Assembly: GCF_964275005.1 (NCBI RefSeq)
Contig: NC_092688.1
Span: 22,325,903-22,389,902 of the forward strand
Direction of reading: 5' to 3'
Source of the DNA: Diadema setosum
Taxonomy: Eukaryota > Echinodermata > Echinoidea > Diadematoida > Diadematidae
Length of the DNA stretch: 64,000 nt
In this document: in pieces, positions 5,272 to 62,845 of the stretch
How the letters are laid out: the number at the start of each line of letters is the position of its first letter
Position numbering within the stretch: position 1 is the first letter of the stretch
Program-made: the position numbers and the translations under genes
Notes under the pieces: generated by a model
Databases searched by the model: none
What the model was told of the DNA's origin: nothing
Seen by the model: the letters and a program-made list of their open reading frames with translations, nothing else

Positions 5272-5643
5272 TTAAAGGAATGGTATTTGTTGAGGTGAGG
5301 AAAAAAAATACTTTATGAAATTTTAAAAAGCATATATACAATAATTATTCTAAGAGGAATTCAAAGTTAATTTGATGGAAATCGGTTTTGAAATGGTCGA
5401 GATATCCAAAAACAAAGTAAAGCAAAGAGGTCCTTATACTGAGATCGCTTTGTTTTCAATCTCAGCATTCTTAAAACCAATTTCCATCCAATAAACTTTG
5501 AATTCCTCGTAGAATTATAATCATGCTCTTTCATATTTCATAAGAGGTTGCTCATGATCTCAAAAAAAAAAAAAAAAAAAATCATCATGAAAAAACGTTG
5601 GAAATCTAGCCTCATATCAACCGAAACTGTGCCATCCCTTTGA
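5272..5643. mobile_element. TTAA-flanked foldback MITE, AGGGATGGTACAGT family (old copy)
   Basis: It starts at TTAA followed by AGGAATGGTA and ends with the inverse CCATCCCTTT. The interior matches the better copies at 22,760 and 40,924, for example GAGGAATTCAAAGTTAATTTGATGG and its inverse on the other arm. This is the most diverged of the three copies. Confidence 0.6.
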
Positions 5644-19600: not shown

Positions 19601-20514
19601 TGTATACATCGCCGTAAAATGAAATTCACCCATGCCGGTTATCTTACTTTAGTATCAGTTTGTTTGCCAAATCCTGATGTTTGATTTCATAATCGTCTTT
19701 AGTAATTTCATGGCTGAATTCGTGATAAATGAGCAAACTTGTAGAAAGAGTTGGCTTTGAGAATGTGGCACCAGATTTCGACATTCCCATAATAAGACAC
19801 GTTATAGAGGAAACAACAAGTTCTTGCGCCGGTAGTTTGCTGGTTTGCGTCCACAATGCAGTGTACGCATACTGTACGCGCCACGTGATTTCTGTGTGAT
19901 GCGCGCTGTGATTGTGTCGAAAAATGATGCTGGGTGTCGAAATCTGATGCCAGCGACAGCGTGAAGGAAATCGCTAAAATTGAACACGAGTGCATTCAAA
20001 TTGGAATTCGTTCAAGGCATATTATTATTGGCCTTTGTAGCTCAACTTCATATCGAAATTCCGAGGTAAAACGGTGCAGTATTGATGGTAAACAAGGAAA
20101 TGTGCTAAAGTGTCGAAAACCGGTACCCTTACTGTACATGAGGTTATTCTGGGTTTCTCTTTGAAGGTACACAACACGTGCGAGTTAATTTATCTTTCTT
20201 TGACAGCAGGGATGTGTGTATGTGACGTACTAACTGCGACCAGCCCCAACGCGTTGGGGCTGGTCGTACCTGGACGGACTGCAAACAGGAGCGGAAGCAT
20301 AGAACTGAGTGAACCGCAGGCCCTGCGAAGCCAAACGGTTGAGGTTCGGCGTGGAACTCGTCGGGTGTCCGTACGACTGCAAGTCGCCGTAGCCGAGGTC
20401 GTCAGCATATAAAATTATTATATTTGGTTTCTCCTGAGCATGAGCATAGCCATCCTCGATCATTACAGATGAGATACATGACAACAGAAGGAACAGAGTT
20501 GATTTCGAATCCAT
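10689..20514 (-). CDS. ARSA: Arylsulfatase A-like lysosomal sulfatase, six coding exons
   Basis: Predicted 539-aa hydrolase that removes sulfate from sulfated substrates (cerebroside sulfate in the vertebrate enzyme), acting in the lysosome or secreted. Exons: 20,270-20,514; 18,260-18,514; 15,989-16,357; 14,811-15,066; 11,488-11,751; 10,689-10,919. All introns are GT-AG and phases match. Start M at 20,514 gives a hydrophobic signal peptide (residues 1 to about 27); an in-frame ATG also lies at 20,580. Active-site residues are all present: D38, D39, C78 and R82 in the CSPSR formylglycine signature, K132, H134, H160, H236, D288, N289, K309. The cysteine-rich C-terminal block ([15 protein letters not shown]) is the ARSA hallmark, separating it from ARSB or GALNS. 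N-glycosylation sites include NETT, NGTT and NLTT. The signature arginine codon is split by intron 1. The least certain junction is the exon 6 acceptor at 10,920. Human ARSA has 507-509 aa. Confidence 0.93.
11761..11972. mobile_element. hAT-like MITE abutting the ARSA exon 5 splice acceptor
   Basis: Left end TAGAGGTGGATCTAGG and right end CCCTGGATCTGTCACTG are inverted relatives of CAGGGGCGGATCCAGG. GAAAG occurs immediately outside both ends (756-760 and 973-977 of the 11-kb block), a possible target duplication. Only nine intron bases separate the element from exon 5. Confidence 0.65.
12749..14152 (+). mobile_element. TIR element carrying a decayed SAP plus SWIM-type gene
   Basis: Perfect 20-bp terminal inverted repeats AATAGACCGGTTTACTAATG bound 1.4 kb. 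If the outermost TA pair is a target duplication, the TIR proper starts GACCGG. Inside are a short SAP-domain frame and, 400 bp on, a SWIM-like segment, both plus strand. The element sits inside another MITE in ARSA intron 4. No transposase is recognisable, so it is nonautonomous or degraded. The element family is not known to me. Confidence 0.6.
12943..13510 (+). pseudogene. Relic of a SAP/SWIM zinc-finger protein gene
   Basis: The frame from ATG at 12,943 encodes 49 residues, starting MASASSSQSSS and followed by a SAP-like DNA-binding helix pair ([15 protein letters not shown]...KVKLIKLVQ). Further coding-like segments in shifted frames follow, ending at about 13,450-13,510 with [20 protein letters not shown]. 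That matches the first half of a SWIM zinc finger (CxC before the missing CxH). SAP plus SWIM proteins of this layout are common in marine invertebrates and often continue into a YqaJ-type exonuclease domain, which is absent here. It is interrupted several times and is not a functional gene. A splice donor after the CxC segment is possible. Confidence 0.55.
14341..14776 (+). repeat. tRNA-derived SINE, partly duplicated and folded back
   Basis: A tRNA-like head (about 14,556-14,635) has box A TGGTCTAGTGG at 14,574 and box B GGTTCGAATCC at 14,617. A 136-bp tail follows (14,640-14,776). The same tail, almost identical, lies just before the head at 14,374-14,509. A 33-bp inverse of part of the tail lies before that at 14,341-14,373, so the layout is inverse tail, tail, head, tail. 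The tRNA part lacks a convincing acceptor stem, so it is a SINE rather than a tRNA gene. Its end is 34 bp from the ARSA exon 4 donor. Confidence 0.75.
15067..15105. repeat. (AAAC)n microsatellite beside ARSA exon 4
   Basis: AAAC tetranucleotides run directly up to the exon 4 acceptor. Read on the minus strand this gives (GTTT)n, which serves as the pyrimidine-rich tract in front of TTAAG|ACC. Confidence 0.7.
15194..15418. mobile_element. 225-bp MITE in ARSA intron 3
   Basis: The left end CATCTAAAGCCTGCCTCACA and the inverse of the right end, CATCTAAAGGACGCCTCATA, are imperfect inverted repeats extending to the shared GCAATT. The interior is non-coding and repeats the CGCACAGTGT motif. Confidence 0.6.
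16618..17270. mobile_element. 653-bp TA-flanked MITE in ARSA intron 2
   Basis: Terminal inverted repeats of about 36 bp start TATGTGACCCTGCATCAC on the left and TATGTGACCGTGCATCAC on the inverse of the right, and continue to AAAGTCGC. TA at the tips suggests a mariner-type target. There is no transposase ORF. It abuts the L2 fragment that begins at 17,271. Confidence 0.75.
17271..17945 (+). mobile_element. L2/CR1-type LINE 3' fragment in ARSA intron 2
   Basis: Two plus-strand frames (to about 17,534, then 17,515-17,763) encode the conserved C-terminal tail of L2/CR1 reverse transcriptases: [30 protein letters not shown], then LRSSTSGLL and [20 protein letters not shown]. One frame change near 17,525 breaks it. 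The 3' UTR ends with the L2-like GCGCCTTGAGCA and ATGGGGCTATAGAAATTGTA. It is 5'-truncated, lacks the catalytic domain, and lies opposite to the ARSA transcript. Confidence 0.8.
18556..18691. mobile_element. GC-rich hairpin MITE in ARSA intron 1
   Basis: TACCATACTTATGGGTAAAC and the inverse of the right end TACCGTAGTTATGGGTATTA form the tips. Longer inner arms around GGTAAACTCGGCCCCC pair as well. It lies 41 bp from the exon 2 acceptor. Confidence 0.65.
18921..19079. mobile_element. hAT-like MITE of the CAGGGGCGGATCCAGG family
   Basis: It starts CAGGGGCAGATCCAGG and ends with GTAGATCCACCACCG, the inverse form. An internal poly-C run and AGGGGGCGCACGC are shared in style with the copies at 1,351 and 11,761. 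It is in ARSA intron 1. Confidence 0.65.
19343..20136. mobile_element. 794-bp nonautonomous TA element, copy 1 (ARSA intron 1)
   Basis: Ends are TA-CCGTTAGTGCACCAGTTTTC and, inverted, TA-CAGTAAGGGTACCGGTTTTC, continuing GACA. TA on both tips and CAGT termini point to Tc1/mariner-type mobilisation. It is nearly identical to 55,611-56,406 throughout. The minus-strand ORFs it carries do not resemble a transposase. Confidence 0.8.
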
Positions 20515-22448: not shown

Positions 22449-23202
22449 TTAAAGGTCCAGTTTACCTTTGGGAGCAGTGATTTCGAAAAATGTTCAAGAT
22501 ATCACATTTGATGCATGTGTGTAGGTCTGCTGTATCATAAAACATCCTACCATATTAAATATTTGCAATGAAACCTAAAATATAAGGAGATATCAGGGTT
22601 TTTCTTCATAAACCGTAACTGTATACGGTTTAGTCTGGAAACATCTTTATTATAACTATTGTTCACATTTTGTGTATTTAACAACACTTAACATCGATTA
22701 TACGGATTCAACTTTTGACAGTGGTCGTTTCTATCCCTAACTCACATTTTAGAACTATTTTAAAGGGATGGTACAGTATTGGTGGAGACGAGAATTGGGC
22801 TTTTAACTTTTTGTGAGATACCAAGAAAACACTTATGATATAGTACAGAGCATACCATTTTAAGAGGAATTCAAAGTTTATTTGATGAAAATCGGGTTTG
22901 GAATGACTGAAACATCAAAAAACAAAGTAAAACAAAGCAAGCGTAATAAAGTGTGGGTCCCACACTTTATTAGAATCGCTCTTTTTTGGATATCTCGACC
23001 ATTTCAAAACCAATTTTCATCAAATTAATGTGGAATTCCTCATAGAATTACATGCTCTTTCATATTTCGTAAGAGGTTTCTCATTATTACACCAAAAAAT
23101 GTTAGAAACCTGAAATTAGGTCTCAACCAAAACTGTACGATCCCTTTAAAGCACTATTGATGGGTTTTTGTTTCATCTGCAAATGGTAAATTATGCCTTT
23201 AA
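22449..23202. mobile_element. TTAA-flanked MITE (AGGTCCAGTTTACC family) split by a second MITE
   Basis: Left tip TTAA-AGGTCCAGTTTACC; right tip GGTAAATTATGCCT-TTAA. An uninterrupted copy in the opposite orientation lies at 57,305-57,683. Compared with that copy, this one is interrupted at CTATT|TTAA by the element at 22,760-23,149. Confidence 0.75.
22760..23149. mobile_element. TTAA-flanked foldback MITE, AGGGATGGTACAGT family (nested)
   Basis: TTAA-AGGGATGGTACAGT on the left, ACTGTACGATCCCT-TTAA on the right. The centre is palindromic (AAGTGTGGGTCCCACACTT) and both arms share GAGGAATTC-type blocks, so the whole folds as a hairpin. Other copies are at 5,272 and 40,924. Confidence 0.8.
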
Positions 23203-40923: not shown

Positions 40924-41316
40924 TTAAAAAGGGATGGTACAGTACTGGTGGAGATGAGAATTGGGCTTTTATATTTTTGTGAGATACCAAGAAAACACTT
41001 ATGATATAGTACAGAACATACCACTTTAAGAGGAATTCAAAGTTTATTTGATGAAAATCGGGTTTGGAATGACTGAAACATCAAAAAAACAAAGTATAAC
41101 AAAGTGATCGTGATAAAGTGTGGGTCCCACACTTTATTAGAATCGCTCTTTTTTGGATATCTCAGCCATTTGGAAACCAATTTTCATCAAATAAATGCTG
41201 AATTCCTCATAGAATTACATGCTCTTTCATATTTCATAAGAGGTTTCTCAGTATCCCACCAAAAAAAGTTAGAAACCTGAAATTAGGTCTCAACCAAAAC
41301 TATACAATCCCTTTAA
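40924..41316. mobile_element. TTAA-flanked foldback MITE, AGGGATGGTACAGT family, third copy
   Basis: Nearly the same sequence as 22,760-23,149, including the central GTGTGGGTCCCACAC palindrome. Tips are TTAA-(AAA)GGGATGGTACAGT and ACTATACAATCCCT-TTAA. Confidence 0.8.
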
Positions 41317-46833: not shown

Positions 46834-49800
46834 TTATTGAGGGTACGCTGGCAGTGTGGGCATCTGCACCGCACCACCATAGGAAGTCCACCCGCTGCTC
46901 TGGGCTGCTCCTACCCCCGCCCCTTGAGGAAAATATCCCGGCTGGTGTGCGTTTCCATAGCTACCAGTCCTTGGTGGGAGAGCAGGGGCGGGGCGGGTAG
47001 GAGACGGAGCATGGGGCATCGCCATGGACGACGCCATGTTATGAGACGGGGTTGGGGTAGTGCCGACGGCGCTGGACTTCAACAGTTCTTGCATTTTATC
47101 AGACTTGATGCGACGTATGTGCGCAAGCATGCGCCGATCACTGAACTGTTCTAAAAAGTCCGTCAGTGGGATGTTTCCGCTCAAAAATTCCTCGGCAATC
47201 TCCTGCAAAGTGTGTGAAGATATGAAACAAACAATGTCATTTACAGCAGCCACCCACTGTCTCACGTTCATAAAATAAAGAATATACTGATGTTGCATCC
47301 ATTTATACATCACACAGGAGCACTGCACACTCATCCATTTCTACAGAACTAACAATACTGACTATTCCTAGTTCATTCTTTATGTAGAGTGGTTTATGTC
47401 ACAGTTTTATGTGTTTGCATGTTTCCCTTTCTAGTTGAATATGTCTGTGTGAAGAACCAGTCATTCACAATGGCTACCCACACAACGCAACACATATGGT
47501 TTCTTGAATAACAATATTGATTCTTTATCAGTGATTTCTATTTCTTTTAATTTTGCCTGCTTGTTCTAAGTTCTGATACTACATTTATTTCATGCTATCA
47601 ACATTCTCAGAGATGCTTGCTCACTCTTTAATTCATTTCTCAAATCCATACCAAACTTTATAAAGTACTGTTGAATATGAGTAGAGGAGCCTGTTACATA
47701 ATCAAGACACTAACCTCTGATTCCTCCTCTGTCTTGGTAGCAGCCGTCTCCAGCATCACCCGCGTTGCATCCACAGAGAAATTCTCATTCAAGGATTCTG
47801 CATATGGGTTTATAGAGGGAATAAAACAATCATGAAATGGCACAGGCCCATCAAATTCTCTTCACGTTGAACATGGCCACCTTCATCAGATTTCTTCTTG
47901 TGGATTCTAGTCTTCATTTACAACATGCATTTCAAGAATTCACGCATGAAACACAATTCACTCTTACAGCACAATCTAGCAGAATAGTTTTGAGGATGTT
48001 ATCTAACTGTGTACATTTTACCATCATTGCTTTGAAATTCATTATGATGATGGTAGTATTGATGATTATTATCAATACAATGATGATAATATGATTGCAA
48101 TAACAGTCAATATCGTCACTATAATTGTCTATAATCATCACTGCTGCCACAGGGCTAACTAACTTTTACCTCTGGTGGCCTGTTCAGGCCACTAAAATCT
48201 TGAAATTTTGCCTGAAAATCTTGCATGAAAAAGAAATGTAGTGGCTTGGAGTAAACAGACACATAACAATCCATTTTGAATCTACACTGCCCAATCAGGC
48301 AAGTAAAAGATCGAGCCTTTCTGGAAATTTGATCACCCCATATCATTTTTTAGTGGCCCTGGGCCCTGGGCCCCAGGCCACCGATAGTAATGAGCCTTCC
48401 ACCACAACTGCCACTACTTCTCTACACCCAGATTTCTGACGTCATGCCCAGTGTATCCAGACCTAATCTTCTCCTGTCCATGTCGTATATCTCCCGCAGC
48501 CTCTTGGCCTCTTCATGAAGGTAAGCCAGCTGTACGCGCCCCTCACTCAGTCTCGTCTGTCGCGACAGGTTGAAGTCGGCCAGACTGCGGTTCTCGGCCA
48601 TGGCCATCTCCTTGTCCACTTGCCTCTGTTTGTTCTGCGGTGCACAGATTTAAAACATGTACACAAAATTGATTTTAGGAAAGGCCTACAATGTATACCG
48701 TAAGTGCACAGAAAGCTATTTAAAGTGTAATTATGCTAACAGCACCAGGATGCAGCTGATCTGTGCTTCTGTACGTTGACATTGCATTTGATGATGTGCA
48801 TCCACAATATACAGGAATCTACAGTTTTGCTTTTTTTTTTGTATGTGTTGTTGTTGTTGTTTTCTCCTGGGACTAGTTTAATTCATGGACCTTACGTTCT
48901 TAATCACCCCTTCAGTTGTATACTTAATGTAACTAGAAATGTCGCTTTGGCGACTGGTATGCCTCCGCCATAATGCATGATTTTCCTAATAGGTCTAGAT
49001 AGTACATGTGGACACTGTGTGATTACATTTTCACAAAATTGGCAAAATATTGGAATGACAAGTTTGTCACAAATGTGTTGAATGTTCACCTTCCTTGATG
49101 TAGGTTTAATTGGATGAATAGGAGAGCATGTATCTAGGGATTTAAGGACTTTAACTTGACTTTGACCATTCATACATTTAGGCATTGAGTAATTTTCAAG
49201 GTACAGGTGTGGAGAAAAAGTGCAATTTCTGAATTGAATAGTAAATTGTTTCCATTTTCATCTGGCCCTTGACCCTAAAATTCATAAGATAATTACTTCC
49301 AGGTAGAACATGCATAATATGTACTAAGTTTCAAGGTAACTTGAGCCACTTCCGAGATATGGAGGAAAAAGTTAGTTCAGCACTTTCACTTGATCTTTGA
49401 CCTTTTGACCTTTGAGGCAAAAAGAGAAAAAAAAACTTTCCAGAGAATTTCTATTAGGTTACACACGCATACACCAAGTGTAAAAAAATAACCCTGCTGG
49501 CATTGCATAAATATGAGGGTAATAGTAAAATTTTGAAGTCTTGCACTTGACCTTTGACCCCTGACCTTTGACCCCATGAACCCTACATTCTCTAGATAAT
49601 CACTTCCAGTCAGTACATGTATATACTATGTTCCATGAAGATACCTTGAACAATTTTCCAAGGTACGGAGAAAAAAAAGAAGTTTTAATATTTTTACTTG
49701 ACCCTTTGACCTTTGACCTTTGACCTCATGACCCAAACTTTCACCAGAGAATCTTAATTGGGTAATACATGTATACACTCAGTTTCAAGAAAATCTCTTC

Positions 49801-52800
49801 AGGCATTCAATAGATATGGTGGAAATAGTGAAATTTTATGTATTTGACCCTGACCTTTTGACCTTTGACCTTTGACCTCATGACCCAAACTTTCACCAGA
49901 GAATCTTAATTGGGTAATACATGTATACACTAAGTTTCAAGAAAATATCTTCAGGCATTCAATAGATATGGTGGAAATAGTGAAATTTGATGTATTTGAC
50001 CTTGACCTTTTGACCTTTGACCTTGAGCATGTGCACCCAAAAGTTGATAGGCACAACTTCACCCCCTAATACACATACATGCCAAGTTTCATTAGGATAC
50101 CTCAACAGGTTTTGATAGTTACCTTGTCCACAAAATTCATTACGGACGGACGGAAGGACGGACGGACGGACGGACGGACGGACGGACAACCCGAAAACAT
50201 AATGCCTCCGGCACCACTTCGTGGCGGAGGCATAAAAATCTGACACACAATGTTGTATTTGTTGTATTTTGGTGTCAAATTTTTGCCTAATATGCATATT
50301 TTCCATGTTCTTTGTTTTTTAGGTATTATATTGCATTCAAAAAAAAAAAAACATGAATGGATGAATGAACCCTGATGAACTGCATTTAATAGTGTCTGTA
50401 GACAGAAAGCTTGGGAAAAAGCACCATAAATTCAGCCACTGTAAACTTAATCACGTACAATTTGTATGGAATAATACATGTAAAAAGCTATAATAAATCC
50501 AATGAATAAAAAAAAATGGAAGAAAACAAAAATATGAGTGGATCTCCATCACAGCTGCCAGAAAAAAATTGTATCAGTATCCAATTCAGTGCAGTAGGTT
50601 GTGATGCACTTTTTCCACAAGCTGTAATCAAAACTCATAGCAGACAGATTCAAGTATATCATATATCAATGATGTATCAAAACAGCAACCACACACACAA
50701 CACCTTTACTCTTGATGGATAATGATAGTATGAACAGAAACAAAGACCTTCAGTTTTTAATACAAAGCACAGTAAATCAATACACAGACTACTATACCTC
50801 TCAGAAACAAAAGGACACAGCACACAGATGTAATATGTGCCAGTACAACTACCGGTATAAGTTTATGCAGCTGTTGGTATACATTGTTTGTACATCATAT
50901 GTACACTGTTTGTGCATGATCATACATTGTATCATGTGCAAGATATTCTTCCCTTGAACATTGCATAAAAATAAAATTGATTTGCTTTTAACATGGCATC
51001 ATAAGTTTCAATGACTTCAATACATTTAACACTGGAGAATTACATTGTACGGTAAAACATATTTTCGCGGCATGAAATTTTTAGCAAATTGGAACCGACG
51101 GCCTTTTTTCGCGGCATGAAATTTTAGCGATTTGCCTCTAACATTCAATGCATGTATAGTGTAGGCAAGAACTTTCACATGCATTTTAATTTCGCGAATC
51201 TTGGCTCTCGCAAAATTCGTGAAATTAAAATGCACGCGAATATTCCTTGTTTTACAGTATGTCAGCATATTGGACACCAGTGCAGCTCATAATTTATCAA
51301 GAGTTCCACTGACTCCAACCTGTACGAACAGTCAATATGCTGATTGCAGAATGAATTTCAGATGGCTATTCCACACATTGAGGAGATAAAAACAGCATCC
51401 AAAATAATAATAATAATAATAATAATGATAATAATAATAATAATAATAATGATAAAATAATAAATACAAATATTAGTGTTTCCTCATATGAAATGCAGTC
51501 ATTTCATACAATATATGCATATTAACAAGACATTAATGCTTTTAAAGGCTTCTCCATCAGACGGGCACCTTGCAGAAAAAGAGCCCACATCTCAACTGAT
51601 TGAGACCTTTGCTTCTTTGCCGTGGCTGACATGTGAATTACACATTGTAACAAGTGTGACAAATTGTTGGAGTAATCAACTGCTCACTGTTAGCACATGA
51701 TCAGCAACACTGAAAGAGATGGATAATGCAGATTTCCCTGTGCATACACTGTCATGTTTGATATCACATTAAACATCCGTAATGACTGGAATATGCATGA
51801 CTTCTTGGCAGGAAGCCTGCCGTGTGAAGGAAAAGGTCATTAGAGTAGTTCTGGTGCAGTCAAAAGCTCTCTCACTTACAGAAGCTGTATCTGTACTACA
51901 TCTGTAGCACTGCTGCAAAGGTGCATACGCTGGATACACCTTCACAACCTTATTTCCTCCTTTATTTCAGGGCATACTGTACATTGTACATGTACGTATG
52001 CTTCAAGTTATTCAAAATGCTTTCATAACACAGCACAATGCTGTATGCCTTTGAAATACATAGTTTTGCGCAAATTTTATCCCACTTTGTTGCAGGTACA
52101 TACATGTATATTGTATAATTTGTATTTTTCAAACTTCCTGAATTCTTATACTACAAGTGAGACTCTGCCTGGGACTGGAAACCCAATACCTGTGAAACTA
52201 CAGAGCTGCAAGTTAACACAACATCTCTTGAAGAAGGAGAACCCGTACATGTAAAAAACACTTGCGAATAAAATGTTTACATTACTGAATGAATCAAAAC
52301 TGAAGCAGGCATGACACTCACTGATATTGTCTCTATAAAACTTACTTTCTTTGCACCTTGTTTCTTTCCTTTTACGTGATTCATGCTGCCCTGCTTAGCC
52401 CCGTTTGATATCTTCTGGGAGAAATGTCGACAAAGTACTTGGATACTGCGCGCGGTATTGAAAACTTGACTGTCCTCAGTGCAAGACGGTTCTAGTATGC
52501 ACTACGACTGTGTCCCTGTTCATTTGTGAAACTGACACACTGCCGAGAAGAGCTTGAAGCCTGTGGGAGGCGCAGTGAGACATCACATCCTATCAGGACT
52601 GTGTAAGGGGCAGGATATGATAGCCTTCTCACAAGACTCAACCCTGTTTAAGTACAGAATCGAGCTCTACACCTACATATGTACAGTTGTACACTGTATT
52701 TCAGTTTGGGCACTGTTTTTCATGTTAATGTCTATTTCAGCCATAACTGTGTGTCTATTAAGAATTAAATTCATGTATTGACATACTGTACATTTGTACA

Positions 52801-55800
52801 TTGTAGCAATGCACCTGACTCATTGCATAACCCACTGAATCATCTCTTCTTCCGATTCTGGAAGCCCCCAGTTATGGTCAACATACAATATAAGGTCCAG
52901 TGTTTTAAAACTTAAATTGGTCTATAGTCAAAAGGAACCATCAAAAATTGGCTTTTAAAAAAGGGTAATGTTAAGGCTTTACATGCTGCCTGACTCCACT
53001 AGTCTTCTGATTTGTGACTTTAATATTCTCCACGTACATTGTACGCATGGACTCTTTGGTTCCATCATTCCTGATAATGAAAGTAGTGCAAAATTAAACA
53101 CAAACATTACAAAGTTTTAGTTATGTAGTGAAGAGCAATCCACACAAAGAAATGTAGCCGGCATCAACATTCATTTTCACACAGTGGAGAGCACTGTTTT
53201 CGACGGACTATTGACGTACATGTACCCTTCATTTTCAGACATGGCTGCAATTCACTTTAGTTTTACATCAATACTCTAAAGGTCTCCTTTTTCTAGGCCT
53301 TCTGCCTACAGTACATGTACATGTACACTGTAGATAACCTTTTACATATCTACATGTACAACACGTTCCTCGGAAATTGCGCTTGGCACAGGATAAATTT
53401 ATCATGAAATGCAATGTGCCAAATCCAAGATCACAATGTCTTCTTCTACCTCAGCAGTGAAAGATAGTCCCCATAGTCCATCTATCCGTCCTTTCAATGT
53501 AATGTACAATGTAACTATAATTGTGCTTTAATACAATGGCACTTTGCCCAATAAAATGCTAAATCCTTCTCAACCTTCTGTAATCTGAACATAAACATCA
53601 CATAACAATTAGTGCAGTGTATAAACTGGAAGGTCAACGTATACAAACAAATTGTTGGGGACATCCCCATTTCCTGTTCACAGGAAAAAAAAAGAAAAGA
53701 ATGGTGGTCTGCAGAAGGGGTAGTGAAACCTCCAAATTTGACGATGACCAGAAGAAGAAGGGGCTACCCCCACTCTTGAAACATTGTGCTATCACTCACC
53801 CCATTCACAGTGCACATTGAAGTAAACATCATGTGAGTAGGCAGCAATTGTGTATTTGCACAGTGTGAAACACTAGCATCCAACAGCTGCATCACAGCAG
53901 TTGATAGTCACAATACCTCCAGATAATACTGTACATTGTAGTTAAAGACTACAGGCTTCACTTCAGATTAAGATTATTTGAAATTTCTACAATATGATGA
54001 GGCTACAAATGTACATGTACCAATGAGAATGACTATGAAACTTATAAATGCATGGTACATGTATCTCTCCTTACAAAGTTCTGCACTTTACTCTCTTTTT
54101 AAAGTTCAAAAATGTAAATTGAATCATACTGTTCTATAAGCAGGAAACAACACTGCAACTGTATTTCATCTGGATAAAAGTGAAAAGAGAGAGGAAAAAT
54201 CACTCTCTGCAGATGTCTACAGAACAAATCCTGCTGGGATTCTGTCACAATACAAAAACTAGTAAAAATGACTACCATTTTCTGAAGCTGACACAAGGAG
54301 GCACCATGAATGCTGAACAAAGCCTTCTGTAAACAACATGATGCAAAATGGTATCTGACATTCTTGACTGTTCTTACTTCACTCTTTCACATGTGCACTT
54401 TCACACTGTCAGCTACCTCAACAAACTTTGCACAATCATGATGATGTGTATTTCTAACAAAAAGCACAGTTTCAGCTGCTTACATTTTAAAGGGAATGGT
54501 ACACTCTACACACCTACACTGTACTACCTGTATACTGTGCACGTATGCCTGTACAAACTGTCCATGTACAGTGTACCAAGAACAAACTTACTGTACCGTA
54601 AACATACAGTACCGGTACTCTTACATGTAGATCATTACAGCTACATTTTGTGCACTACTGTATGTAACTTCTAAACAATCAACCCTCATTTTTCCCCTTC
54701 AATCATCTTTAATCAGAGTACTGGTACTCGTGACATCAAATTTCATGCTGTACGTTCTTGCAAAATAATTATGATTACATGTGCAAACTACACTTGTACA
54801 TAGCAATGATGTCATCGCAATACAACTCTCCCATTGGTTTCATGAAGCTATCTTCTGTTTTAAAAAAAAAAAATGTCTGTAAAGAAACAACTACATTTAT
54901 GTACAAAGTGTAGGAACCCACACCCTTTAAAAGTTGACATTGCCTAATTGACATACATGTAACTCAAGAACATGCTGATACGTGTTGTACAATAACTGTC
55001 TTCTTGAATCCAGTTCATGTCATGGCAGTTAGAGAAAGAATACATTGTACACTGTACAAGCTCAGGAATACCACACAAGTGAAAACATGACACGGTTTAC
55101 CACATCTGATTTACATGTACAAGTACCCGGTAATGTGTGCTTTGAGAAGATAGAAATCACTGTGTACCGTGGTACACATGTACCGTACATGGGAACACAT
55201 GTCACAGGCATGAATTGGAAAAACACACAGGCTTATACACTGAAATTCTGTAGATCCTCTGAATACTCTCTGTCCCATTTTCAGTGAAACTTTTGCTGTT
55301 CCGTTAGTTTGCCCTTTTATCATGGTCGACTTGACCATGAAATATGGATTTTTAGATTTTCACTTTGACCATTAAATTTGCCTAGATAGTAGAATTCTGT
55401 GAGAGGGTTAAAGAACCAAACAGCTTTACTGCAGAAAAAACAAAAAACAAAAGAAGGAAAATGGGAAAGACAATCACAGAAAGCCAGAGATAATGCATAC
55501 ATTTTACATCCCAAGGATTTAAACCTATAAAAAAAGCTTTCAACTGGCACACTGGATAATGGAAGCAAAAACACAACAATGTTTACTGAATATCTACAAT
55601 GTACATAAAGTACCGTTAGTGCACCAGTTTTCAACAGGACCCAGATTTCGACACCCAGCAGATAATTCTCATAAAATTTTATACTCAATACAAATGTCTG
55701 ACTTCAGCAATCAACCAAGTTATCAATCACATTTCTAGTCTTATATAAACACCGTTTGTCACTTGTCATCATAATCCGACGGTAGAATATTTAGGAGAAA

Positions 55801-58800
55801 AGCAACACAGTGTCAGCAGAAATGTTAATGGCAGCCATTTTTAGGAGTTCAAAACAATATGACGCATTTTGTATACATCGCCGTAAAATTAAATTCACCC
55901 ATGCCGGTTATCTTGCTTTAGTATCAGTTTGTTTGCCAAATATTGATGTTTGATTTCATAATCGTCTTTAGTAATTTCATGGCTGAATTCATGATAAATG
56001 AGCAAACTTGTAGAAAGAGTTGGCTTTGAGAATGTGGCACCAGATTTCGACATTCCCATATCAAGACACGTTATAGAGGAAACAACAAGTTCTTGCGCCG
56101 GTATGATTGCTAGTTTGCGTCCACAATGCAGTGTACGCGTACTGTACGCGCCATGTGATTTCTGTGTGATGCGCGCTGTGATTGTGTTGAAAAATGATGC
56201 TGGGTGTCGAAATCTGATGCCAGCGACGGCGTGACGGAAATCGCTTAAAAATTGCGCGAGTGCATTCAAATGGGAATTCGTTTAAGGCATATTATTATTG
56301 GCATTTGTAGCTCAACTTCATATCGAAATTCCGAGGTAAAACAGTGCAGTATTGATGGTAAACAAGGAAATGTGCTAAAGTGTCGAAAACCGGTGCCCTT
56401 ACTGTATAAAGTTCTTTCCTCTTCAATACACAGATGCAGTCAGACACAGTACAATATTGTTGTTGACATTTTTTGTATGTAAACACAATACTTTTCATAC
56501 ATGGCAGCTTTATGCTACAGTGTAGAATATTTGTAGTGATACAATGGTATACATTGTATGAGCTGTGTTTGTTCCTGTTGTTGACAGACTGAAATGGTGC
56601 TGCAGTCCAACCCACATGGCATGCAAACAAGAAATGACTCAGAGTTTCTTGTATGACCACAAGTCTTGTGCCATATGGAGGAAACTACCTGTACACGTAC
56701 ATGTACACAGGTATCGTATTACTAATCTGTGAACAACCACTAGATTACAAACCAGCTTTGGGTTATGTCAGCTGAATTGAATGACATGCTTTTATATTCT
56801 AAGACTTTAAAGATTTTTGTTGTTGCACTACTGTACAGATTTAAACAGGATTCCTGCACCTTTTACAATAGAATCCATGACTTTTCCATGATTTTTCCAC
56901 ACAAAATTTTAGAAATCCATGACCCCTTTTTTGGACAGTAACTTCAAGACAACATGTCACATTCTATTTAATAGTGGTTAGTGTTAAATAAATGGAAATT
57001 AAGCAGTGTCCATGCAAAAGTGTTTAGTGTGTTGTACGTGTACAGTATACCACATCAACACTGTCTGTGGCAGAAAAGTTGGTTTGACTTTGTTCAATGA
57101 AATGTTTTCCTCAAAAACAGAATAACATTGCAAGAAAGAAGACCAGTTAAAGGCAAAAAGCAAAAACACTAATCTATATCTTCTTCCATAATTTTCCATG
57201 ATATATCCATAATTTCTCATTTTCCATGATTTTTCCAGGCGTGGAAAAAATATTTTCAAAATTCTACGACTTTTCCAGGTTTTCAATGACCGCAGAAAGC
57301 CTGTTTAAAGGCATAATTCACCATTTGCAGATCAAACAAAAACCCAGCATTGGTGCTTTAAAATAGTTCTAAAATATGAGTTCGGGATAGAAACAACCAC
57401 CGTAAAAATCTGAATCTGTATAATCGATGTTTAAAAAAAGTATTGTTGAATACGCAAAATCTGAACAATGGTTATATAAATAAAAATGTTTCCAGACTAA
57501 ACCATCTACAGTTTATTGAGAAAAATACTGACATCTCCTCATATTTTAGGCTTTATTGCAAAAATCTTACATGGCAGGATGTTTTGTGATTCAACAGACG
57601 TTGTACACATATATATATGCATTGAATGTGATATCTTGAAAATGTTTTAAATCACTGCTCCCAAAGGTAAACAGGACCTTTAAAGGTGGGAAAATGACAA
57701 AGTTTCTTCGGAGCAGAGATCATGTAAGGCGGAAGGACAAAAATGCTATACAATGTACATCAATGTCTCTTTTCACACCTGACAAATGACGGTACATTGT
57801 ACATTGTACATCCCACTTTACAGTTTAGAGTCCAACTACACTGTACACTTATACCACAGTACTGGTAACCACATTTTGTGGTTTCGTGCTGAGCATGTTT
57901 TTTAGGTATTGAAGTTCGCTGTTCTGTGTTAGGGTTCTACTAGAATATATGTATATTACTATTAGATAGAAGAAAAACATAATACATGTACACGATAGAT
58001 TGAGCCCTACTATGGTCACATACGTGTACCATTACATGTCAGTTTCAGAATCATAGTTTCTGTATCGCTAACTGTATGACTGATCCTTACAAAGTCCTGA
58101 CACATTTAATACAGAAAATGACAGAGCGCTCCAGTTACTCATTAAAATTGACACTTTGTGTGCATACAATGTGTATTCTCTAGAAAGGATTTTGTGCATA
58201 CGTTATTTGATTTTGATCCTTTTCAACAACATGTATTCTCCCTGTATTTATGCAGTAAAATTCAAAGATGCCAATACACAGAGGACAATAATATAGTATT
58301 TAATCTCTGCAGCAAGTATCCCTCAAGCAGGATTTACTGTACAGCAAGATAATTTTGCTGCATGAAATTTTCGCAAATTGGAGCTCACAGCCTTTTTCGT
58401 GGCATGAAATTTTTGAAAATTGCCACTGGCATTCCATGCATACAATGTAGTGTAGATAAAAAATTTTTGCATGCATTTTAATTTTGCGAATCTCAGCTCT
58501 TGCAAAATTTGCGGAATTTAAATGAATGCGAACATTTCTGGTTTTACAGTAATGAGTCACAGCCAGTCCTACAGGTGCATGCAGTGTTACACATTGGAAA
58601 AAAATCCTGATCTCATTCCTCCCTTGTGCTGTAAATCTCATAAATTACTTGGCCATCATACAACACCTGAATCACACTTGGTGGGAGTAAAAGAAGAAGA
58701 AAATAAAAAACTTTTACAATTACTGCCTCAGTACTGAAATACACTGCACACTGTACACTGTATGCAGCATTTGACCTTGGCATATTGACCCAGATAGTCC

Positions 58801-60213
58801 AATTTAAGATGATGATATATAAGTGGAGTACTGTAAAAGTAGATATTTTCGCATGACTAATTTTTCGCACTCGACCGAATAAGAAGAGTTTTGCATGTTT
58901 TTAATTCAGCGGAATCAAGACATCAAGTACTGGAACATATGGCAAGCATAAATATTCACATGCTTTCATTTTCGCGCTAGTTTCTGGTTGCGTGAAATGC
59001 GCGAAAATTTCAACACGGCAAAAATTTCCACTTTTACAGTAATTTGGTACCCTATTACTTTAATTTACAATGTAGACTAACATTTTTTTCAGAGATACTT
59101 CAACAAGTACGGTTGTATTAACTTCTGTCACTTATGAACAGATTATCTACCAATATCGTACCACAAAAAAATAGACATTCACAGTGCATGTACAGTGTAT
59201 GATGGCTTTTCCTGGCACAACAAACCAATTTTAAAACTACAGTCATCCATGTTGGTGTGATGAAATGTCAAAAGATTGTAAAATCCACACACACGTCATA
59301 ATGTCAGTGAACATTACCCACATCACAGTCATGAGAGAGAGAGAAAAAAAAACACTACGGTCAGTTTCATTGGAAAGCATTATATCCAACATCCACCTTT
59401 TTGCATAAGAACATATAAAATTGAGCAAAAAAAAAAAAAAAAGGGATTCCATCCTGATGGAAGCCTGTTTTCTTTGCTCAATTTTTCACTAAGAACTAAT
59501 GAAACAATATCAAAAGAGAGCACATTTTCTTTCAGTTGAGGTAAACACTTGCCTTTCAATCTTGTCATTTGAAAATGTAAGTTACAGTCACTCCTCATAT
59601 TGTACAATCGTAAGTCTACTTTGCATTTCTCGAACAATAGAAAATAAAAGGAAATTTCATAAAATTTCATATCAAATGAAAAGTACACATTTCTTCCACT
59701 ACCGTATACTTTAATACATGCCGAGGATAATATTATATACTCAATCCACTCGTTTTCTAAAGGCACGCTTTGTGTCACTGGTACTCACCTGGTTGGCGTC
59801 ATGTATGAGAGCATTGAGCTTTTCATCAGACTCATGTAATTCCTGCAAGCCGGCCACTGACAAGTGCTCTAGAAGGGGGAATTCCCGTGGACCTCTGCTG
59901 GCTCCTGCCGCCCCGCCCATGGCCGGTGTGGAGGGAGATGCTGACGGAGGGGTGGGGAAGTTGGATGGAGAGGGGTGTGGGTAGGAGAGTCTGGGTGGGT
60001 TCTGGGGTATGGATGGCGTTGGCATGGCCATGGCTTGGGGTGGGGTATGATGCTGCGACTGGTTGAAATTGTACGGGTAACCGTGACTGCTATACATGGC
60101 TACAAGTTGTCACAGATCACGATGAGCCAATGTAGTGTGGATGGGCAGACTACAGATGCTGCTCCCACAACTCAGCTGGAGCTGGCCTTTGATGTATGTA
60201 CCGATTGTTTCAC
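46834..60213 (-). CDS. VPS37: VPS37-like ESCRT-I subunit (VPS37B/C type), four coding exons
   Basis: Predicted 310-aa subunit of ESCRT-I, which sorts ubiquitinated cargo into multivesicular endosomes. Coding exons: 59,789-60,097; 48,463-48,634; 47,715-47,797; 46,834-47,202. Junction phases match. The first exon extends as 5' UTR to an acceptor at 60,213, so an upstream non-coding exon must exist. The start M is fixed by an in-frame TGA 15 bases upstream. Residues 1-70 are Pro/Ser-rich; the Mod(r) domain is about 74-232 with DKEMAMAENRSLADFNL (compare NRSLAEGNL in human VPS37s), a charged helical stretch, and FLSGNIPLTDFLEQF with AHIRRIKSDKMQEL. A Pro-rich tail (235-310, PTRPAPALPPR) fits VPS37B/C; there is no UEV domain as in VPS37A. 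Odd points are the Pro-rich N-terminal extension before Mod(r), an 11.2-kb first coding intron full of repeats, and a stop codon inside AATAAA. Confidence 0.88.
48151..48394. repeat. Interspersed repeat, family A copy 2 (VPS37 intron 2)
   Basis: Same block order as 40,601-40,828, ending in TTTAGTGGCCCTGGGCC. It lies 69 bp from the exon that starts at 48,463. Confidence 0.6.
48940..50234. mobile_element. Element with ATGCCTCCGCCA ends and a TGACCT-repeat array
   Basis: Left end: GTCGCTTTGGCGAC hairpin, then TATGCCTCCGCCA at 48,958-48,970. Right end: TGGCGGAGGCATA at 50,222-50,234, which also closes a hairpin with ATGCCTCCGG at 50,201. Between them are at least five units of about 150-156 bp, each with TGACCTTTGACCT-type direct repeats (near 49,390, 49,547, 49,700, 49,845, 50,000) and TTTCAAGAAAATCT or related phrases. 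A (GGAC)n run at 50,150-50,187 precedes the right hairpin. No ORF. It lies in VPS37 intron 1. Confidence 0.7.
50235..51047. other. VPS37 intron 1 sequence, nothing recognised
   Basis: Unique-looking AT-rich intron with short A-runs; no repeat copy or exon seen. Confidence 0.35.
51048..51259. mobile_element. TACTGTAAAA-family MITE with TTTTCGCGG-rich interior
   Basis: TACGGTAAAACA on the left and TGTTTTACAGTA on the right. The interior repeats CGCGGCATGAAATTTT and ends with TTTCGCGAATC and GCACGCGAATATT. Close relative of 58,335-58,551 in the same orientation. Confidence 0.7.
51402..51460. repeat. (TAA)n microsatellite
   Basis: TAA trinucleotides with a few TGA interruptions. Confidence 0.85.
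51461..55610. other. VPS37 intron 1, long stretch rich in ACATGTAC and TACATTGTAC
   Basis: Palindromic motifs such as GTACATGTACATGTACACTG (53,311) and TACATTGTAC recur at high density. No exon is recognised. TTTAAAGGGAATGGTACA at 54,487 may be a solitary tip of the TTAA-AGGG family. Confidence 0.35.
55611..56406. mobile_element. 796-bp nonautonomous TA element, copy 2 (VPS37 intron 1)
   Basis: Same sequence as 19,343-20,136 from tip to tip with scattered substitutions and short indels. TA flanks both tips (TA-CCGTTAGTGCACCAG and CTTACTG-TA). Same orientation relative to the plus strand as copy 1. Confidence 0.8.
57305..57683. mobile_element. TTAA-flanked MITE, AGGTCCAGTTTACC family, uninterrupted copy
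   Basis: Tips TTAA-AGGCATAATTCACC and AGGTAAACAGGACCT-TTAA. It is the reverse complement of the element split at 22,449-23,202 and contains the intact site TTCTAAAATATGAG...AATAGTTCT where that copy is interrupted. Confidence 0.8.
58335..58551. mobile_element. TACTGTAAAA-family MITE
   Basis: TACTGTACAGCAAG on the left and GGTTTTACAGTA on the right. The interior (GCATGAAATTTTCGC, CATTCCATGCAT, CATGCATTTTAATTTTGCG) matches 51,048-51,259. Confidence 0.7.
58829..59041. mobile_element. TACTGTAAAA-family MITE with perfect tips
   Basis: TACTGTAAAAGTAGATATTT on the left pairs with the inverse of AAATTTCCACTTTTACAGTA on the right. The interior differs from the 51,048 and 58,335 copies, so it is a sister subfamily. 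Confidence 0.75.
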
Positions 60214-60352
60214 CTGGAAATGAAAGAACAGAGTACATCTTTCATGCTATCTCTATTTTTATGTTAGGAAAAAGTATGGAATGATGCACAATCACGAACA
60301 AATGCTGAGAGAATAGATTTGCTGAGCTTGCAAGCACTATAAAGGACTTAGA

Positions 60353-60870
60353 CCCCGTTTACAGTGCGGCCGAGCCCAGCCCCGCTTCAGTGTAAACGCG
60401 CAAAAGGCCAAATGCGAGGCCAAAATTGGCCTCGCATTTGGCCTCGCTCTGTAGGTGGTCTCGGCCGCGGCCGAGCCGAGGCCGAGCCCGGCCTCTTCTT
60501 GGTGTAAACGCAAACTGGGCCAAATGCGCGGCCAATTTTAGTCTGGCTTCCAGACCCTCTGCCCGTACTATTTCGTCATTCACGATATTAATCCCCTCAA
60601 CGTGGAAAACTAGTATACACCTGTAGTTTAAGGTGGTTTTGTCCTGCAAAGGATTTTTCCTTCGGCAAAGGCCTTTGCCCGAACGGCGACTTCGTCGCCA
60701 CGGAATCCAGTTGGCAAAGGGTCTGAAAACCAGGCTATACCAAATTGCATTTGTTTACAAGCAGAGCACCACTACGACAAAATATTGAAAAGTTTGAGTT
60801 AAAAGCGCGGCCGAGCCCAGCAGTGTAAACGGACAAAATTGCGAGGCTCGGCCGCGCAAATGAGGCAGGG
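60353..60870. repeat. GC-rich foldback repeat with a nested MITE
   Basis: GTTTACAGTGCGGCCGAGCC and GGTGTAAACGC bound arms rich in GGCCGAGC and GCCTCGCATTTGGCC, which pair with each other. A second MITE with tips AGTCTGGCTTCCAGACCC and, inverted, AGCCTGGTTTTCAGACCC sits inside at about 60,540-60,738. It lies 140 bp upstream of the VPS37 5' UTR exon and is far more GC-rich than its surroundings. Confidence 0.55.
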
Positions 60871-60984
60871 CTCAATGCCCACTCAACAAACGTGGCCGAG
60901 TGAACGTGAACATGTATTGCATTGCTAGACGGAAATGCGGCCTTGTAACGACTGATGTCGCTATGCCACTTCTGGCAACTTGGG

Positions 60985-61140
60985 AAAAATACATCCCGTA
61001 GACATAACACAGTCTATAGATAATCGGCTGGTTTTGATACCTTGCCTTTAATCACAATTTTTAGTGTGATGACGTCATCAAAGTACAAAACAATGACACG
61101 GACTTGAAAGACAATTGTTCAAAGTACAACACATCCGTTG
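60985..61140. repeat. CRE-containing repeat segment, copy 1
   Basis: CCCGTAGACATAACAC, TTACC/TTGCCTTTAATCA, GATGACGTCATCAAA and GACTTGAAAG occur in the same order at 62,690-62,845. The palindrome TGACGTCA is a consensus CREB/ATF site. Confidence 0.6.
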
Positions 61141-61234
61141 TCGTCATTACATACTATGATTGGTTTGACAAACTCAGCCTGCAAAATTTTGCAGCCGTCG
61201 AAGCAATGTGGTCTCTAACACAAAACAAAGGGAT

Positions 61235-61235
<1 letters not shown>

Positions 61236-61270
<35 letters not shown>
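61236..61270. repeat. (TG)n microsatellite
   Basis: A TG dinucleotide run of about 30 bases. Confidence 0.85.
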
Positions 61271-61272
<2 letters not shown>

Positions 61273-61375
61273 CAATTTGTAGGTGCGTTTATATACGAAC
61301 GTGATTTCTACATGGACGAATGTGTAATACACCATTGAAGAAAAAAAAGTAAAAGAACAAAGTATTCTGTTTCGT

Positions 61376-61460
61376 GCTCTTATGGGGTTCAAACCCGCAC
61401 GTGTGCTACCTCACGTCTCTGAGACGTCGCCTTTAACCTCTCCGCCATACATCTCGACGA
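61376..61460 (-). repeat. tRNA-Leu-like pseudo-tRNA or SINE head
   Basis: On the minus strand: box A TGGCGGAGAGGTTAAAGGCG, an anticodon-like arm ACGTCTCAGAGACGT whose loop centres on CAG (Leu), a long variable region, then box B GGTTTGAACCC. The acceptor ends do not pair, so a working tRNA is unlikely. Confidence 0.45.
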
Positions 61461-61631
61461 GAAAATATGAGGAACGTGAGCTTTTGTACACTGTTACATG
61501 TGAAAGATGAATCAGGAATCGTTTCGTCAACATTCCATTCTCATTTTCAGTTTTAAGCTACAAAATTGTCAACCTGATGAGGAGATTTCACAAAGTACAA
61601 CGAAAAGTAGAAATTACGCGGTGCGTAATAT

Positions 61632-62556
61632 AAGTCCCCGCCAGAAGTAGCATTTTGTAGCAAAATGTACAATATAGGTCAGAAATCAAGGTCAAAGGTC
61701 AACAAAGTCAAAGGTCAAAATTCTGTGTATAAGATGTGAAGCCCTCACCTACTATGTAGTGCCATCACATAAAGCAAACGGAATCGAAATCGGGTTAGAA
61801 ATGGCAAAGGAGTAGCATTTTGTAGGCAATGTACAATATAAGTCAAAAATCAAGGTCAAAGGTCAAAGAAGTCAAAGGTCAAAATTCTGTGCAGAAGCTT
61901 TGAAGCCCTCACCTAGTGCCATCACATTAAGCAAACGGAATCGAAATCGGGTTAGAAATGGCGAAGGAGTAGCATTTTGTAGCAAAATATACAATACAGG
62001 TCAGAAATCAAGGTCAAAGAAGTCCAAGGTCAAAATTCTGTGTAGAAGTTCTGAAGCCCTCACCTAGTGCCATCACATAAAGCAAACGGAATCGAAATCG
62101 GGTTATACATGGCGAAAGAGTAGCATTTTGTAGCCAATGTACAATATAGGTCAAAAATCAAGGTCAAAGGTCAAAGAAGTCAAAGGTCAAAATTCTGTGT
62201 AGAAGTTTTGAAGCCCTCACCTAGTGTCATCACATAAAGCAAACAGAATTGAAATTGGGTTAGAAATGGCGAAGGAGTAGCATTTTGTAGCAAAATGTAC
62301 AATATAGGTCAAAGGTCAAGGTCAAAGGTCACAACTGAAATTCTGTGTAGAAGTTTCAAAGCTCCCATGTAGTGCTATCATATAAAGCAAACAGAATCAA
62401 AATTGGCTCATAAATGACAGAGAAGTAGCAAATTGAACATTTTGATCACACACGGATGCACACACAGACGGACGGACAGACAGACGGACGCACAGACACA
62501 CACACGTACGGAGCCCGATTCATAGTCCCCTGCTCGAACTCGTTCGGCGGGGACAA
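61632..62556. mobile_element. Element with GTCCCCGCC ends and an AGGTCA-repeat array
   Basis: Left end AAGTCCCCGCCAG at 61,632; right end CGGCGGGGAC at 62,545-62,554. The right end also pairs with GTCCCCTGCTCG at 62,525 as a terminal hairpin. Five units of 148-164 bp start with AGTAGCATTTTGTAG (61,647, 61,811, 61,968, 62,119, 62,276). Most carry AGGTCAAAGGTCA. A GACGGACGGACAGAC microsatellite precedes the right hairpin. No ORF. Confidence 0.7.
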
Positions 62557-62689: not shown

Positions 62690-62845
62690 CCCATAGACAT
62701 AACACGTAAACTTGTCTGATTTCGAGTCTTTACCTTTAATCAAAACTTAAAGTATGATGACGTCATCAAATTTCAAAACCATGACATGGACTTGAAAGGC
62801 AAATGTTAAAAGTACAACATATCTGAATTTGGGATAATACTGAGC
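62690..62845. repeat. CRE-containing repeat segment, copy 2
   Basis: Matches 60,985-61,140 block by block. Further relaxed CRE-like sites lie at 62,934 (GATGACGTTATCGAG) and 63,475 (GATGACGTCAGAG), so this may be a larger decayed element reaching to about 63,680. Confidence 0.6.

Follow-up and report, generated by a model that had tools for sequence, protein, structure and literature searches.

In a 64,000-nucleotide stretch of the Diadema setosum genome (NC_092688.1, positions 22,325,903 to 22,389,902 of the forward strand; "the window" below is this whole stretch), two repeat-rich segments, here called E1 and E2, are very probably single copies of two large non-autonomous Helentron families (HINEs, i.e., Helitron2-type rolling-circle elements). 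An initial annotation of the window had described both as mobile, non-coding, many-copy elements built on one plan and carrying arrays of the half-site AGGTCA, and this description is supported for E1 as well as for E2.

One plan and one insertion target

The genome was scanned over 912.7 Mb in 102 contigs. For each family the window copy was compared with 39 further loci, which together make up the best-scoring 40 of 2,704 E1 and 2,171 E2 candidates; two E1 sequences (L022 and L045) and one E2 sequence (L056) were dropped from counts based on the ends. Both ends are present in 38/40 E1 and 39/40 E2 sequences of these best-scoring sets, with the flanks diverging exactly at the ends. The head of E1 (a 34-mer, allowing up to three mismatches) occurs 5,082 times genome-wide (2,539 + 2,543), and the reversed control 0 times. 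The parts of the two elements are as follows, in window coordinates.

48932..50233, minus strand: E1, a complete candidate HINE (non-autonomous, Helentron-type) of 1,302 bp, with its 5' end at 50,233 and its 3' end at 48,932
50202..50233, minus strand: E1 5' subterminal inverted repeat (subTIR) ATGCCTCCGCCA, which forms the 5' hairpin with its complementary inner copy, from fold energy and copies genome-wide
50142..50187, minus strand: E1 (GTCC)n microsatellite, reading GGAC on the plus strand, from Tandem Repeats Finder (TRF)
49388..50130, minus strand: E1 central repeats of ~152 bp; the arrays within them read AGGTCA along the element strand
48959..48970, minus strand: E1 3' subTIR TGGCGGAGGCAT, lying 27 bp in from the 3' end, from sequence and copies
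48932..48954, minus strand: E1 3' palindrome GTCGC-CAAA-GCGAC and tail ATTTCTAGT, with the palindrome in 38/38 copies
61597..62554, minus strand: E2, a complete candidate HINE of 958 bp, with its 5' end at 62,554 and its 3' end at 61,597
62525..62554, minus strand: E2 5' subTIR GTCCCCGCC, which forms the 5' hairpin with its inner copy, from fold energy
62447..62498, minus strand: E2 degenerate GTCC/GTCT-type microsatellite, from TRF
61646..62424, minus strand: E2 central repeats of ~157 bp; the AGGTCA arrays within them read TGACCT along the element strand, the opposite orientation to E1
61634..61642, minus strand: E2 3' subTIR GGCGGGGAC, lying 37 bp in from the 3' end, from sequence and copies
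61597..61628, minus strand: E2 3' palindrome (TTACGC/GCGTAA) and tail, with the palindrome in 39/39 copies

Read on the minus strand, E1 and E2 have the same order of parts: TT, the 5' inverted repeat with its inner copy, (GTCC)n, the central repeats, a copy of the inverted repeat on the 3' side, the palindrome, a tail containing ATTTCTA, and T. The 5' repeat begins at position 0 in every copy with both ends (38/38 and 39/39) and folds, as DNA, into a hairpin of −11.8 kcal/mol in E1 and −9.6 kcal/mol in E2, which was equalled by 0/200 and 2/200 shuffles, respectively. GTCN runs of 12 bp or more are found in 38/38 E1 and 35/39 E2 copies. The central array of E1 comprises five AGGTCA-bearing blocks in the window, spaced at 156, 152, 152, and 152 bp, with further, more degenerate blocks toward the left end; TRF reports only 2.2–2.5 copies of 152 bp for this array, and 4.4 copies of 157 bp for that of E2, which has a degenerate fifth unit besides. 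Across the fetched copies, the unit spacing is 151.3 ± 2.4 bp in E1 (48/50 spacings fall within the 100–220 bp class) and 156.9 ± 3.3 bp in E2 (30/73 spacings), and 42 of the remaining 43 E2 spacings fall close to multiples (for example, 315 and 472), as given by a missed anchor.

The tandem units, the GGAC-type microsatellite, and the hairpin that closes each right end with its own inner copy had all been proposed in the initial annotation, and they stand. The left ends do not: identity between copies runs past the boxes taken as left termini, by 27 bp and 37 bp in E1 and E2, respectively, through a second palindrome and the tail, and then ends abruptly, and the orientation of both elements is minus. 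The ends are consistent between copies, the period is narrow, and the arrays are rarely found outside the elements in the fetched stretches.

All copies but one with both ends have a right flank that opens with AA (38/38 in E1, 38/39 in E2, with a tendency to AANAA), and the base to the left of the element is A in 34/38 E1 and 36/39 E2 copies. Flank duplications range from 0 to 7 bp; those of at least 4 bp occur in eight E1 copies, where all are A-runs, and in four E2 copies, where two are A-runs and two are AATA-type (L060 and L071). One insertion can be compared with its empty site. At G000:C1:14,957 kb, a locus present in both copy sets (L065 and L045), an E2 copy is nested in an E1 copy at GTTTAATT, and uninterrupted E1 copies supply the empty site GTTTAATTGG, to be compared with the filled GTTTA-ACAAGG...GGGGAC-AATTAG; the As at the junctions leave an ambiguity of 1–2 bp. 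At this locus E2 must thus have moved later than the insertion of the E1 copy. Other matches that span an insertion point (queries L015 and L016) were not counted as empty sites, as they are gapped matches within the same loci.

Taken by its parts, the layout of E1 and E2 is that of a HINE: a 5' subTIR with an inner inverted copy that forms a 5' hairpin, a 3' subTIR internal to a palindrome, insertion into TT or T-rich targets that are not duplicated, no coding capacity, and a microsatellite and central tandem repeats, the last two being common in HINEs but not universal. No Pfam domain was found in the seven frames tested that lie in or overlap the two elements. Canonical Helitrons (Helitron1) were considered and rejected; these begin with 5'-TC, end in CTRR-3', and insert between A and T, whereas the ends here read ATGCC.../GTCCC... 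and ...TAGT/...TTGT, and the flanks AA/TT.

Several observations concern individual copies or the surroundings of the elements. In L022 (G000:C8:13503223-13504539), an E1 copy has a 3' tail that resembles that of E2 (ATTTCTACTTTT), with a shortened palindrome, which suggests, from the sequence of this copy, an exchange of ends between HINE families. The right flank of L047 consists of an E1 5' head, five As, and the start of an E2-type tail (AGTAGAAATTACGCGGTGCG), and probably represents two HINEs back to back. E2 in the window is bracketed by direct repeats of 82% identity (61028-61135 and 62716-62823), perhaps an older tandem unit that received E2. A generic finder for the HINE plan gave no convincing third element in the window; of its 30 rows five were E1, and E2 was missed because its inner copy is weaker. 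Similarly, a scan of the fetched stretches for tails with TAGAAAT plus a hairpin gave no third family, and the single match classed as other is an E1 copy.

The AGGTCA arrays

E1 contains 15 AGGTCA half-sites and E2 18, with five DR1 pairs (direct repeats spaced by 1 bp) in each, while among 500 dinucleotide shuffles the highest counts were 5 and 6 half-sites and 0 and 1 DR1 pairs, respectively; the remaining 61.7 kb of the window has 25 half-sites and one DR1. The arrays noted in the initial annotation are therefore real and far above chance. In the genome as a whole, an exact triple of the half-site (AGGTCAAAGGTCAAAGGTCA) occurs 3,667 times (1,843 + 1,824), the reversed control 0 times. Among the first 100 triples listed, all on C1, 73 lie within 1.5 kb of an exact E1 head on the expected side and strand (chance ~0.4%); by cluster, 53/71 are near such a head and 55/85 heads have a triple. 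This comparison drew on 85 exact E1 heads, those listed as far as 16.82 Mb, and 18/71 clusters are without one. In the fetched loci, which total 224.7 kb, 461 DR1 pairs lie inside E1- or E2-like DNA (104 kb) and two outside (120.5 kb), a count that shows the flanks to be poor in the motif, since most of the loci had been selected for E1 and E2, and other elements may carry DR1. Among viral contigs, the triple is present in six stretches and the E1-type hairpin pattern in none, which is uninformative.

With the AGGTCA block masked, no alignment between E1 and E2 units rises above shuffles on either strand. The initial statement that the two elements have no obvious sequence in common is thus correct for the units outside this block, but not for the tails, where ATTTCTA stands beside the palindrome in both. 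The blocks themselves align over 34 columns on opposite strands, with a score of 49 compared with a maximum of 34 in 200 shuffles; in the orientation of the elements, the motif reads AGGTCA in E1 and TGACCT in E2. Among the short gaps between half-sites, lengths of 1 and 2 bp are the most frequent in E1, as are lengths of 1, 10, and 7 bp in E2, a pattern that fits a degenerate heptad, AGGTCAA.

That such a block has been moved between HINE families by template switching or recombination, so that descent of a short block rather than convergence accounts for the likeness, is a possibility that we entertain tentatively, at somewhat less than even weight. E1 and E2 do nest and adjoin, as seen in the nested locus and in L047, where an E2-like tail directly follows an E1 head, and the E2-like 3' tail of the E1 copy L022 points in the same direction, as does the opposite-strand alignment of the blocks. 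A repetitive heptad, however, aligns well with itself without common descent, and nothing outside the block is common to the units.

DR1 arrangements of AGGTCA are sites of the receptors RXR, HNF4, and COUP-TF, and receptor sites are reportedly present in Alu repeats. The arrays might accordingly have been kept as a platform bound by receptors of these types, to the benefit of the element (through germline transcription or open chromatin) or of the host. We regard this as unlikely, judging from the sequences compared. The same half-site array in two unrelated unit types on opposite strands is what orientation-independent binding would permit, and the number of triples in the genome set against an empty reversed control would fit as well. 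Moreover, E1 units differ less inside the block than outside it in 9/10 pairs. Two of these nine do so by only 0.01–0.02, however, the effect is seen in only 6/10 pairs in E2, and the block was defined by the AGGTCA motif itself. The substitution frequency in half-sites is 0.0075 compared with 0.0109 elsewhere in E1 (34/38 copies after length filtering), and 0.020 compared with 0.026 in E2 (12/39 copies); random 6-mer sets were at or below these values in 180/1,000 and 232/1,000 cases, so that the half-sites are no different from random sets in either family. Because the copies are young, this lack of a signal of constraint is no proof against binding. A degenerate heptad minisatellite produces the same spacings. 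We infer that the arrays have no dedicated receptor function. Among the listed literature matches that pair AGGTCA or receptor terms with Helitron, none treats receptor sites in HINEs. In a further variant, which we consider quite improbable, unrelated Helentron families of this animal would repeatedly have gained or kept DR1 arrays because binding of RXR, HNF4, or COUP-TF type receptors, in the tissues where the elements move, aids their spread.

Relation to described Helentrons and source of mobilisation

The comparisons with published elements draw on parts of the respective texts. Among the closest counterparts in overall plan is the Cg_HINE group of Crassostrea gigas (PMC7492417), in which a 5' subTIR of normally 11–12 bp has an inner complementary copy, and a 3' subTIR is accompanied by a palindrome. 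The oyster elements have a short microsatellite, GTCC, GTCY, or GTCK in several of them, and short arrays of central repeats of mostly 140–180 bp; they insert into T-rich targets without duplication, and families that are unrelated in every module keep the one plan. As far as the oyster text shows, the end sequences and units of E1 and E2 are different. The oyster study likewise ties no autonomous partner to its elements. In Helitron2 elements as described by Bao and Jurka (PMC3627910), a 5' asymmetric terminal inverted repeat (ATIR) lies 0–2 bp from the end and forms a hairpin, and the 3'-ATIR lies inside the 3' hairpin; some of these elements insert after Ts without duplication, and pairing of the 5' and 3' repeats has been suggested to set the endpoint of replication. 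DINE-1 and other HINEs, tied to Helentrons by Thomas et al. 2014 (PMC4067079), are described with subTIRs, a 5' inverted repeat partly within the subTIR, a 3' stem-loop, a microsatellite, a preference for TT, and tandem repeats in some, while a C-terminal endonuclease is the Helentron hallmark of the autonomous partners. DINE-1 has a conserved core, and the likeness of E1 and E2 to it is one of described plan, not of sequence. The same kind of likeness, by description, holds for elements described in PMC7492417 or cited in PMC4067079, namely Pearl (small mobile elements of bivalves, with short arrays of ~160 bp units), DTC84, MgE, and the sea urchin Tsp elements; elements of sea urchin and molluscs are cited as similar to DINE-1 (PMC4067079).

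It is very improbable that E1 and E2 are instead classical cut-and-paste elements of the miniature inverted-repeat type, having a short inverted repeat at each terminus and duplicating AA/TT. The inverted repeats of 9–12 bp do look terminal, similar copies are many, and As are common to both flanks of the nested copy. In a transposon of this type, however, the repeats would be symmetric and the duplication of fixed length, whereas here the repeat is terminal at one end but internal by 27–37 bp at the other, where a palindrome lies beyond it, and the flank duplications vary in length. This asymmetry is common to E1 and E2, and is also that of Helitron2 and HINE elements (PMC3627910). The undescribed class of non-autonomous elements proposed in the initial annotation is less probable still, and we set it aside: sequence words of E1 and E2 were not matched to such elements in the titles and abstract openings listed, a weak indication as the sequences are mostly in figures and supplements, but the features of the plan are published for HINE and Helitron2 (2013–2020; PMC7492417, PMC4067079, PMC3627910). 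Since the published plan covers families with different ends, the class of E1 and E2 is already known, and the terminal hairpin, the repeat period, and the GTCC microsatellite call for no explanation of their own; what is new here are the two HINE families and the AGGTCA block that they share.

Proteins that could act on such ends are encoded in the genome. Helitron_like_N (PF14214) has 49 matches, 31 of which cover the profile from positions 2–4 to 190–191, and 21 lie in open frames of more than 3,000 amino acids; given these long frames, the Helentron lineage may have been active recently. One Helentron, at G000:C1:14823613-14833816 (PF14214 at C1:14829700; parts in L089, L091, and L092), has an open frame of 3,401 amino acids with OTU and DUF6570 upstream of Helitron_like_N and Exo_endo_phos at the C-terminal end. 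A hairpin at C1:14819279 and a matching box at 14837454 were considered as its termini and rejected, as the hairpin is part of a longer palindrome and the alignment with a second copy continues through 14837119 with no edge there.

E1 and E2 would, as non-autonomous elements, be mobilised in trans by a rolling-circle mechanism. In outline, an enzyme supplied by an autonomous Helentron, its Rep-helicase-endonuclease, would nick the ends and copy one strand, with insertion between two Ts. At the 5' end the inverted repeat would fold on itself, and the 3' inverted repeat would pair with the 5' one and, together with the 3' palindrome, mark the end of replication, in accordance with the model of Bao and Jurka (PMC3627910). 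The central repeats of ~150–158 bp and the GTCC microsatellite would be the usual HINE cargo, grown by replication slippage or recombination, and the degenerate AGGTCAA heptad array in each unit would yield the DR1-type pairs of half-sites incidentally.

Some results weigh against assigning E1 and E2 to the HINEs. The gain in folding at the 3' ends is modest, with −6.1 kcal/mol in E1 (12/200 shuffles as good) and −5.2 kcal/mol in E2 (17/200). The distance from the 3'-ATIR to the end is about 20–30 bp in Helitron2 (PMC3627910), which agrees with the 27 bp in E1, but the 37 bp in E2 is beyond this range and just under the 38–60 bp of mite HINEs. No autonomous Helentron bearing the ends of E1 or E2 turned up in the surroundings of the one PF14214 locus of 49 that was searched; the stretches read at this C1 Helentron (14811700-14829700 and 14833000-14842000), which take in 11.9 kb upstream of the frame and 8.2 kb on its downstream side, gave only chance-level matches, a 9-mer with one mismatch and a 14-mer with three. 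Furthermore, sampling by best score favours full-length copies, and the AGGTCA block common to two otherwise unrelated unit types is left unexplained by the Helentron account.

Neighbouring sequences and significance

A Mod_r (VPS37) match on the minus strand at 46,837-47,340 (30.5 bits, cut-off 30.1) lies about 1.7 kb from E1, and no VPS37 match was obtained in nine other frames of the same search or in ten frames of a second one. A position of E1 inside a VPS37 intron is possible, as far as this match indicates. For E2, the frames tested lend no support to the initial proposal that both elements flank or lie inside VPS37. Elsewhere in the window, a dispersed repeat with inverted arms (AAAGTTTATTTGATGAAAATCGG...) is present at 5347-5521, 22762-23149, and 40928-41316, and a direct repeat of ~800 bp, likely a transposable element, has two copies of 94–95% identity 36 kb apart (19340-20136 and 55608-56406). 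A 138-bp segment is doubled at 99% identity (14373-14510 and 14639-14776), and between its copies (14567-14638) Rfam gives a tRNA-like match (33 bits, E 0.0048) where ARAGORN reports none.

The assignment of E1 and E2 to the HINEs provides two well-bounded, abundant families in a genome with 21 Helitron_like_N matches in frames of more than 3,000 amino acids, and thereby a good setting for finding the enzyme that mobilises HINEs, a link left open by the oyster study in the part of its text used here (PMC7492417). What is left over is the same AGGTCA heptad array in two otherwise dissimilar unit types on opposite strands, which may be due either to a heptad minisatellite passed or expanded among HINEs, or to retention through receptor binding. 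If receptors bind the arrays, the two families would have spread thousands of receptor-site clusters, and if such binding in turn aids their spread, a rolling-circle transposon would be exploiting receptor occupancy while scattering ready-made receptor sites by the thousand across the genome.

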